Part shown: piece by piece, positions 17,001 through 20,000 of the stretch
How positions within the stretch are numbered: the first letter of the stretch is position 1
How the letters are laid out: every line of letters begins with the position of its first letter
NCBI GenBank assembly: GCA_039707465.1
Contig: CM077647.1
Location: forward strand, 179,122,776-179,186,775
Origin: Rhabdophis nuchalis
Lineage: Eukaryota; Chordata; Lepidosauria; Squamata; Natricidae
Reading direction: 5' to 3'
DNA: 64,000 nt
Notes under the pieces: model-generated
Databases searched by the model: none
What the model was told of the DNA's origin: nothing
Seen by the model: the letters and a program-made list of their open reading frames with translations, nothing else
Program-made: the position numbers and the translations under genes

Positions 17001-20000
17001 AAGCTCCCCGGATATCTCCCGTTGTCCCTGTTATTTGATGGGATCGAACATTTTCATTTTCCCGAGCTTTCCTTTAATGCAGCCCGAGGTGGTATTCAGC
17101 CGGTTCGTACCGGTTCGCCCAAACAGGTATGAAAATCTATGCCGGCTCTATGCTGTCCTATGTAGACTCGTTTTCACGCCAAAGCGGATGCGCGGAAGGC
17201 CGAGCGCATGGCTGGACGGGACATGCGGGTGCTGAGATTTGTGAACTGGTAGGGAAAGTACCCTATATATATATTTTGCATTTTTTAAAAAAAATTTAAT
17301 TAAACAAACACCACCAAAAAAAAATCACCCTTCATTACATCTTGTAGAAAGTGTGACAATTGGTTACAGATAACTTTCTCGCATCTCGCCCACCGTCATC
17401 GCTTATCATTCCTATCAGGTTATGTGTTTTCAATTCTTTACAAATCTTACTGTCAACCTACCATCGTTCTCCTTTGACTAAAGTTATTTTAACGTCCTTT
17501 GGCCTAAAACAATCCGCAACCACAAACCGACATTGCCCAATGATGACTTGCTAATGATAAAACTTTAATTAATTTTTGTTATCCACTTTCGTATATCCAA
17601 TAACCGTACACCCTTTATAACGCATTCAAAATATGGATTAATTAACCAAACTTCTAAGCCTTTTTTTTCCAATTTCCTGTTTACAATCTGTAGTCAAGTT
17701 CCTTTAATTAAACCAGTACATACCGTATTTTTCAGAGTATAAGATGCACCAGAGTATAAGACGCACCAAGGTTTTGAAGAAGCAAATTACAAAAAAAAGT
17801 AGGTAGGTAGGTAGATAAAGGGATAGAGAGAGAGAGAGAGAAATAGAGAGAAATACAATAGGGAGGGAGGGAGAGAGAGTAGGTAGGTAGGTAGATAAAG
17901 AAATAGAGAGATAGAGAAATACAGTAGATAGGGAGGGAGGGAGAGAGAATGTGTGTAGGTAGGTAGGTAGAAGGATAGAGAGAGAAAGAGAAAAAGAAAT
18001 GCAGTAGGTAGGTAGGGAGTGTGTGTGTGTAGGTATGTAGGTAGGTAGGTAGAAGGATAGAGAGAAATATATATATAGAGAAAAATACAGTGGGTAGGTA
18101 AGGAGAGAGAGAATGTGTGTGTAGGTAGGTAGAAGGATAGAGAGAAATAGCGAAAAATACAGTAGGGGGGAGAGAGAGAAATACCGTAGGTAGGTAGAAA
18201 GGGAGAGAGAGAGTAGGTAAGTAGAGAGAGAGGGAAAGTAGGTAGGTAGGTTGATGTTTCCAGCTGTATTTATCCATGTCCTGGAGAAAGAAATTGCTGA
18301 CAAACCTTAAGACTTTGTTTCTGCTGGCACGCAAACAGTTAAAGAGCTTAGAGAGTGTTTTTACACTCTGCAAACCTCCCCCAAACGGCCCGTTTCTCCG
18401 TGAAAACGGGTCCGTTTTTTTTCAAATAAAAAGCATGACTAGCCTTGGGGGGGGGGGGCTAGCAGAGTGCTCCAGGGAGTGGGTGGAGGGGGGGTCAAAA
18501 ATGAGCAAAAAACCGGGCCATTTATCGCGACAACGGGCCATTTTTGTGTCAAATCAATTGCATGCATAGCTCTATGGAGGCTTCTAGAGTGCTGCTGGCG
18601 GCTGGGGGGGGGCAAAAAACAGTCCGATTTAGACTTATTTCTGCCCTCCCCAGCCCCCAGGAGCTCTCTGGAAGCCTCCATAAGGCTAGGCACAGCCAGT
18701 GTGGTGAAGGGGGCGGGGTTCCAGGAGGCAAAAAAAAAATGCTGTATTCGGTGTATAAGATTTTCAGGCTCTTTTTAGAGGAAAAAGGTGCGTCTTATAC
18801 TCCGAAAAATATGGTATGTATGTATGTATGTATGTATGTATGTATGTATGTATGTATGTATGTATGTATGTATGTATGTATATATATATATATATATATA
18901 TATATATATATATATATATATATATATATATATATATATATATACACATACATACATACATACATACATACATACATACATACATACATACATACATACA
19001 TACATACATATATATATATATATATATATATATATATATATATATATAATTGTTCCACAACACCCTGTTAGGGCCCCAATTAAGGGAGGAGCCCCGGTTT
19101 GAATCCCAGTAAGGGTATGGCTAGCTGATGAGAGCTAAAAAGCTCGAAATAGATCTATACTAGTCTCCCTGACTTATTTATTGATCAGCTCATAAAACTA
19201 ACACACATATTAAAAAAATTCACACAACGGAACTCATGGCTTTCTGTCTAGATGGTCTCTGGTGATGAGCCGAAAGGCAGAAAAGGAAACAGTATGTCTC
19301 CTCCCTTAATTGGGGCCCTAACAGGGTGTTGTGGAACAATTATAGATACTAATCCTCCTGTTTCAGCTGATGCAATGGGAGAGCCTGGCTTGGCTGAATG
19401 GCTAAAGGCCCCTGCCTGATATGCAATACAGCCCCGGTTCGAATCCCAGTAAGGGTATGGCTAGCTGATGAGAGCTAAAAAGTTCGAAATAGATCTATAC
19501 TAGTCTCTCTGATTTACTTATTGATCAGCTCATAACACTAACACACACACACACACACATATAATTGTTCCACAAAACCCTGTTAGGACCCCAATTAAGG
19601 GAGGAGACATACTGTTTCCTTTCCTGCCTTTCGGCTCATCACCAGAGACCATCTAGACAGAAAGCCATGAGTTCCGTTGTGTGAATTTTTTTAATATGTG
19701 TGTGTTAGTTTTATGAGCTGATCAATAAGTAAATCAGAGAGACTAGTATAGATCTATTTTGAGCTTTTTAGCTCTCATCAGCTAGCTATACCCTTACTGG
19801 GATTCGAACCGGGGCTGTATTGCATATCAGGCAAGAGCCTTTAGTCATTCAGCCAGCCAGTCTCTCCCATTGCATCAGCTGAGACAGGAGGATTTCAGAG
19901 TATAAGACGCACCTATCCCCCCCCTCCTAAAAGAGCATGGAAAAGCTGGTGCATCTTATACACCGAATACAGCCATTTTTTGGCCTTCTGAAGCCCCCCC

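Follow-up and report, generated by a model that had tools for sequence, protein, structure and literature searches.

A 64,000-nucleotide (nt) stretch of the Rhabdophis nuchalis genome (the window) contains several copies of a repeat unit carrying type I hammerhead ribozyme motifs. These copies probably belong to a family of small non-coding retrozymes of the metazoan type, with an RNA that would be self-cut, probably circular, and reverse-transcribed at dinucleotide repeats. Present in the DNA are hammerheads, compensatory changes, a tandem unit length (340 and 336 nt), a junction shared between loci, permuted ends and dinucleotide flanks; this anatomy, together with a palindromic helix III and dispersed copies, backs the relationship to retrozymes that an earlier note on this DNA had put forward. 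Copies A1–A4 constitute subfamily A and copies B1 and B2 subfamily B, which is about one quarter diverged from A; A1–A3 are located at locus A, and B1 and B2 at locus B (Table 1).

Locus A carries two complete type I hammerheads on the + strand. The A1 motif (19119-19165) reads GGCTAG-CTGATGA-GAGCT-AAAA-AGCTC-GAAA-TA-GATC-TAT-A-CTAGTC, and the A2 motif (19459-19505) is identical to it except for one change in helix II. All core bases are present in both, with CTGATGA starting at 19125 and 19465, GAAA, the A15.1-U16.1 pair and an A as H17, and the stems are 6, 5 and 3 base pairs (bp) long. The predicted cleavage sites follow 19159 and 19499, 340 nt apart, and those of locus B follow 57806 and 58142, 336 nt apart. 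The earlier note had described two hammerheads at locus A, 340 bases apart, with a full core and three helices, and direct reading and the descriptor confirm both the motifs and their positions. A strict descriptor, run on both strands (CTGANGA, GAAA, an A15.1-U16.1 pair, H17 other than G, and stems of at least 4, 3 and 3 bp), has four matches in the 64 kb, with cores starting at 19125, 19465, 57772 and 58108, all within the 340-nt repeat, and 300 dinucleotide-preserving shuffles gave two matches in total. A loose pattern, CTGATGA..CGAAA, reaches at least two matches in three of 100 shuffles and is weaker evidence than the full descriptor. That this loose core pattern is not rare, and that the curated cut-offs of Rfam give nothing, would suit a chance resemblance to the hammerhead, but the shuffles with the full descriptor, the compensatory changes and two intact copies that were not used to train our own model (see below) speak against it; on the shuffles and the compensatory changes chance was rejected for practical purposes, and we consider its probability negligible.

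A BLAST search of the window with the unit gave, once matches to simple repeats were set aside, seven pieces of the unit, six of which include the hammerhead region. The earlier note regarded the interval at locus A as a tandem repeat of two, which is right for A1 and A2, but the interval also holds A3 on the - strand and the inverted piece at 19041-19091. The halves of each tandem are similar, agreeing at 110 of 117 positions for A1/A2 and at 107 of 110 for B1/B2. A2 and A3 (19391-19855) form an inverted repeat of 159 nt with 96% complementarity, and read-through transcripts could therefore form long double-stranded RNA. Outside the window we sampled 28 stretches of 10 kb (280 kb) of the same genome, at positions hand-picked on contigs C1 to C5, the last of which holds the window, a non-random sample that leaves out the smaller contigs. 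A model of the 67-nt motif built from the six hammerhead copies of the window (R1) has two matches in this sample, with 76.4 bits in stretch L006 and 94 bits in stretch L022, both with intact cores, and BLAST of the sample finds in stretch L012 a unit fragment without a complete hammerhead. The L006 copy (3700-3850) is older, with C as N7, UAAAUA as helix II loop, no B box and an intact core. The insertion in L022 (836-1199) consists of an inverted tail-plus-head piece and a direct unit. By extrapolation from the two finds in 280 kb, the genome of 1.918 Gb in 348 contigs would hold about 14,000 hammerhead copies, with a Poisson range of about 1,700 to 49,000. The core is kept in six of the eight hammerhead copies (A1, A2, B1 and B2 by descriptor, L006 and L022 by alignment), and the absence of copies keeping the core, which the earlier note would have taken as a refutation, is itself refuted. 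Metazoan retrozymes without long terminal repeats (LTRs) are characterized by tandem units of about 170–400 nt, each with a type I hammerhead, as found here at two loci with 340 and 336 nt, and by dispersal in many copies, as found here with six hammerhead copies in the window and two in the 280 kb.

Table 1. Positions in the window of the copies, hammerheads and associated pieces of the repeat unit. HH9, Rfam family Hammerhead_HH9.
Feature	Position	Strand	Remarks
Unit-tail fragment without hammerhead	7196..7264	-	Adjoins (AT)n repeat; BLAST
Inverted fragment of the 3' part of the unit	19041..19091	-	51 nt, 98% complementary to 19298-19348; fused 5' of A1 with 2-nt overlap
Copy A1, from B-box region through hammerhead to unit tail end GTGGAACAATTATA	19090..19344	+	BLAST, direct reading
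A1 hammerhead	19119..19165	+	Intact core, stems 6/5/3; descriptor; HH9 29.0 bits; predicted cut after 19159
Predicted 340-nt cleavage product (reference ring)	19160..19499	+	From predicted cut sites
Copy A2, head and hammerhead	19345..19549 (approximate)	+	Joined to A1 by tail-to-head junction; ends in (CA)n tract
A2 tRNA-like boxes	19391..19446	+	TGGCTGAATGG 19391-19401, GGTTCGAATCC 19436-19446; tRNA covariance support weak
A2 hammerhead	19459..19505	+	Intact core; descriptor; HH9 25.0 bits; predicted cut after 19499
Copy A3, about one full unit	19560..19894	-	3' end in (CA)n/(TG)n tract; core broken at G12 (AAAA)
Inverted head fragment	57691..57739	-	49/49 complementary to 58030-58078; fused 5' of B1
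Copy B1 (subfamily B), from B-box region to unit tail	57740..57990 (3' boundary approximate)	+	BLAST
B1 hammerhead	57766..57812	+	Intact core, compensatory changes in three helices; HH9 27.9 bits; predicted cut after 57806
Copy B2, head and hammerhead	57991..58184 (5' boundary approximate)	+	Ends in TATATA(TG)n; BLAST
B2 hammerhead	58102..58148	+	Intact core; HH9 28.9 bits; predicted cut after 58142, 336 nt from B1
Copy A4, single subfamily A unit	58389..58515	-	Head partly deleted; TG/TA repeats on both sides; core broken at C3 (TTGATGA)

The ribozymes of A1 and B1 differ at nine of 47 positions, and six of these differences make up three full pair exchanges, C-G replacing U-A in helix I, and G-C replacing A-U in each of helices II and III. 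The remaining three affect N7, one base of the helix II loop and H17 (A to C), positions that are free under the hammerhead rules. When nine substitutions with the same mix of transitions and transversions are simulated, all 14 pairs and the core are kept with P = 2e-4, and with P = 7.5e-6 if at least three double changes are demanded as well. In the alignment of the eight copies standard pairs fill 99.1% of the cells against 95.2% after shuffling (none of 500 shuffles reaching 99.1%), and at most 44.6% of the cells are paired when the partners are slid along the alignment. The covariation score is 0.255 against 0.165 for shuffled alignments, a level reached by none of the 500 shuffles, nor did any of them reach the observed number of cells altered on both sides. 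L006 and L022 contribute one-sided changes only. We read these data as selection on the hammerhead structure in the source elements.

Helix III has 3 bp closed by a palindromic GATC loop, and when two 50-nt copies are folded together the predicted structure is a double hammerhead whose shared helix III is palindromic and 10 bp long. The cofold of A1 with A1 has a calculated energy of -34.8 kcal/mol, compared to -12.4 for the single copy (-24.8 for twice the single), and B1 with B1 gives -45.6 compared to -15.0 (-30.0). A weak helix III with a dimeric hammerhead, a feature of metazoan retrozymes, is thereby predicted for the snake unit by cofolding.

The 340-nt unit of locus A from cut to cut (19160-19499) was used as a reference ring, onto which eight elements were mapped, the ends being those of the BLAST alignments and accurate to within a few bases. 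Counted round this ring from start to end, the direct parts are 271 to 48 for locus A, 277 to 51 for locus B, 192 to 185 for A3, 282 to 194 for L022, 21 to 190 for L012, 262 to 48 for A4 (which has lost more of its head), 286 to 26 for the old L006 copy and 109 to 177 for the fragment at 7196. The 3' ends of six of the eight thus fall at 48, 48 and 51 or at 185, 190 and 194, and at both sites the unit has a TA/CA dinucleotide tract, ACACACATAT and ATTATAGATAC. A3 spans one unit, opened at a point other than in A2, A4 and B2. The tail-to-head junction of locus A is also spanned by the alignments of locus B and of L022, in the latter within its inverted piece. Permuted ends with a shared junction are as would be expected from copying of a ring or a multimer, and unlike a SINE (short interspersed nuclear element) with a fixed 3' end. 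A clue to insertion comes from the TA/CA tracts, with which ends and targets mostly agree: by eye, six of eight elements pass at the 3' end into a TA/TG/CA tract and five of seven adjoin one on the 5' side, with a background of 1.6% of positions in the 280 kb and 2.3% in the window. A clustering of 5' breaks at a modified T-loop base was considered and dropped, as among the four elements with an inverted piece the starts at 271, 277 and 282 are near the B box but that of L012 is at 21.

Amplification without an RNA step, as satellite-like duplication of DNA by unequal exchange or slippage, has a parallel in the tandem repeats derived from SINEs that are common in squamates according to excerpts of PMC10702118. 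Against this, each tandem locus holds only about 1.3 to 1.4 units, the same junction is found at two places, single copies are dispersed, and the repeat units in the same excerpts are always shorter than the parent SINE. We regard duplication of this kind as highly improbable.

In four of the eight elements (locus A, locus B, L012 and L022) an inverted piece lies 5' of the direct part, as template switching would leave. Inverted 5' pieces are frequent in Penelope insertions, and the copies could on this ground derive from a Penelope-like element, as parts of its pseudo-LTR, and not from an independent non-autonomous element. Tandem type I hammerheads of a minimal kind are indeed found in Penelope-like elements (PMC7761336), but as described in excerpts of this review the motifs lack helix III or loop-loop contacts, whereas the hammerheads of the window have an A-rich loop in helix II and an internal loop in helix I. 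This origin is in our opinion very unlikely, if marginally less so than DNA duplication.

The head of the unit resembles a tRNA gene. A2 has an A-box-like TGGCTGAATGG and a B box GGTTCGAATCC, 45 nt apart, and A3 has similar boxes with box A altered. A1 starts at a B box with one mismatch, GGTTTGAATCC, without an A box, B1 likewise starts at its B box, and L006 has no B box. The Rfam tRNA model gives 15.3 bits (E 6.7) on the head of A3 and reports nothing for the head of locus B, and a search for tRNA genes in the window found none. There is no run of four T residues in 19092-19562 or 57740-58182 (A3 has one), so reading by RNA polymerase III (Pol III) across units is possible, and the head may contain a Pol III promoter. 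The earlier note had placed both boxes before each hammerhead and described the element as half SINE, with a head of the Pol III type; this agrees with A2, and in altered form with A3, but A1 has only the imperfect B box, and the low tRNA score, the lack of one at locus B and the missing B box of L006 leave that half in doubt. Nor is the combination of a hammerhead with a tRNA-like head as unusual as the earlier note supposed, the schistosome Sm-alpha, a SINE-like, tRNA-related element bearing a hammerhead, being a precedent (excerpts of PMC2770079). Perfect B boxes GGTTCGAATCC belonging to other repeats are located at 2295-2305 and 56286-56296 (+), the first being followed by GGTTGGACTAGATGACCTCCAAGGTCCC, which we take to be Sauria-SINE-like.

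The copies might be those of a conventional tRNA-derived SINE moved by a LINE (long interspersed nuclear element), with the hammerhead as an irrelevant passenger and the tandems caused by insertion into the tail of another copy. This would fit the A and B boxes of A2 and A3, the monomeric A3 and A4, the two broken cores among eight and the ends in simple repeats, which are like SINE tails (excerpts of PMC10702118). It does not account for compensatory changes in all three helices, nor for one tail-to-head junction at locus A, locus B and L022 together with two 3'-end positions, which separate insertions with fixed ends would not yield. Moreover, the monomer A3 retains about 40 nt upstream of the A box, and a Pol III transcript started by A and B boxes is expected to carry fewer than 40 nt there. 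A tRNA-derived SINE has a single fixed 3' end, but the ends found here are at 48–51 (three elements), 185–194 (three), 26 and 177 on the ring, and a plain SINE with fixed ends was rejected as the best account on these differences; the SINE explanation as a whole we consider unlikely.

Several observations weigh against the retrozyme reading. The three pairs with double changes are equalled in 48 of 500 shuffles, the number of pair types is 7 and hence below the 8.4 of the shuffled alignments, and the covariation amounts to three events on a single branch. Two of the eight hammerheads are broken, failing the type I core rule: G12 in A3 (GAAA to AAAA) and C3 in A4 (CTGATGA to TTGATGA), both changes expected from hammerhead mutagenesis to abolish activity. 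H17 varies inside subfamily A, being A in A1, A2, A3 and L006 and C in A4 and L022, and A supports cleavage less well than C. In none of the six copies of the window is the hammerhead the minimum-energy fold of the single copy; it is 0.5 to 4.6 kcal/mol above it (in A1 -15.1 against -18.2 kcal/mol). In the consensus fold of the alignment helices I and II are formed, but helix III is replaced by pairing between core bases and the GATC loop. By these models, which omit the tertiary contacts of the hammerhead, single copies may cleave poorly. Of the eight elements, two have 3' ends outside both ring sites (26 in L006, 177 in the 7196 fragment), and with the ring taken from locus A the junction of that locus is present by construction. 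The enrichment of tracts at the flanks is inflated by short TA/CA tracts that belong to the unit at these very points. No clear target-site duplications were seen by eye next to the elements, and the flanks, mostly dinucleotide repeats, would mask them.

If the retrozyme reading is correct, transcripts longer than one unit would be made, perhaps from the tRNA-like internal promoter, and two type I hammerheads would pair through the palindromic helix III and cut twice, releasing an RNA of about 340 nt that is probably circularised by a host ligase. The reverse transcriptase of another element would copy this RNA at TA/TG/CA dinucleotide repeats, a ring or multimer as template would give products longer than one unit with ends that are circular permutations of the 340 nt, and strand switching would produce the inverted 5' pieces. 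Cleavage, circularity, transcription by Pol III and a helper are here what we infer from the anatomy. Excerpts of a review state that the metazoan retrozyme repeats show no motif betraying their helper (PMC7761336). A more specific version can be offered tentatively and seems to us rather unlikely, namely that snakes harbour a recently active lineage of circular-RNA retroelements, a self-cutting and possibly Pol III-driven 340-nt ring that is target-primed at TA/CA microsatellites where it is complementary to them, and that the intronic HH9/HH10 hammerheads of birds, reptiles and mammals go back to an element of which this would be the living amniote relative.

The window has no matches to Rfam at the curated thresholds. 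In E-value mode Hammerhead_HH9 (RF02275) is the top family for all six copies, with 22.6–29.5 bits against a cut-off of 52. The scores are 29.0 bits for A1 (E 6.9e-5), 25.0 for A2 (E 0.0013), 22.6 for A3 and 29.5 for A4, the B copies being given in Table 1. The covariance-model check proposed by the earlier note is accordingly negative at the curated cut-offs and significant for A1 and A2 in E-value mode. Membership in the HH9 family is ruled out with a best score of 29.5 bits against the 52-bit gathering cut-off, while a special tie to HH9 is suggested by the ranking. For L006 the top family is Hammerhead_1 with 24.5 bits against a cut-off of 34. A search of the snake genome with RF00008 had no matches and is uninformative, as the same search matched none of 14 control genomes. 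Scans of viral and prokaryote contigs with exact patterns also found none, as expected for a vertebrate repeat.

The closest likeness in anatomy is to the non-LTR retrozymes of amphibians. Those of salamanders (newt and axolotl) have units of 330–353 nt and a hammerhead whose weak helix III is closed by a palindromic loop and which cuts better as a dimer, as described in excerpts of PMC7229834. The snake element shares the tandem units of similar length, the type I hammerhead, the short helix III and the palindromic loop, and differs in its host, its A-box/B-box-like head and its copies, none of those seen exceeding about 1.4 units and most lying at TA/CA repeats. Expression as circles is stressed by the authors describing metazoan retrozymes. 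Schistosome Sm-alpha and Sj-alpha are alike by description in being SINE-like with a tRNA-related head and a hammerhead, in a different phylum. Among squamate SINEs, Squam1 (Sauria), Squam2 and Squam3 also have tRNA-related heads and lengths of about 190–350 nt, but in excerpts of PMC10702118 their tails are An, (AC2T3)n, (TA3)n and (CT2)n and not TA/CA; the unit may nevertheless be the same as Squam2. The word 'ribozyme' is not found in the available portions of the squamate SINE papers PMC10702118 and PMC7983390.

The intronic HH9 of amniotes is similar in being the best Rfam family of all six copies of the window and in its A-rich hexaloop in helix II, but all scores are below 52 bits and the snake copies are repeats and not one conserved intronic locus. 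Conserved intronic hammerheads of vertebrates were proposed in a 2011 survey to derive from an element like the Xenopus repeats (excerpts of PMC3088659). According to excerpts of a 2017 review, amniote intronic hammerheads resemble those of retroelements found from trematodes to coelacanth and amphibians, reptiles being mentioned there for intronic, domesticated motifs only (PMC6155905). The type I hammerheads of human and other mammals are isolated and non-tandem, so that circles are not expected (2020 retrozyme paper, excerpts of PMC7229834). Among the matches listed in the open literature we found no report of a tandem hammerhead element in a snake, and priority is unproven. If the reading holds, this snake repeat, with its tandem hammerheads and compensatory changes, would bring amniotes into the range of retrozymes, and ideas on where the intronic ribozymes came from could be tested; the element is perhaps related to the source of the hammerheads in human introns.

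Other features of the window were also noted. A coding sequence for thiamine triphosphatase is located at 7475-8299 (+), with 87% identity over 74% of the query to proteins of Thamnophis, Ahaetulla and Pituophis, 71% to that of a boa (Candoia) and at most 61% to those of geckos and lizards among the matches listed, and the name is also backed by solved structures; these identities place the host among the snakes. A tandem repeat with a period of 108 and an interstitial telomere-like (TTAGGG)n sequence is present at 49014-49292. Among the open reading frames of at least 75 residues listed in six frames and inspected by eye, a long one at 52620-53627 (+) resembles the end of a CR1-type reverse transcriptase.

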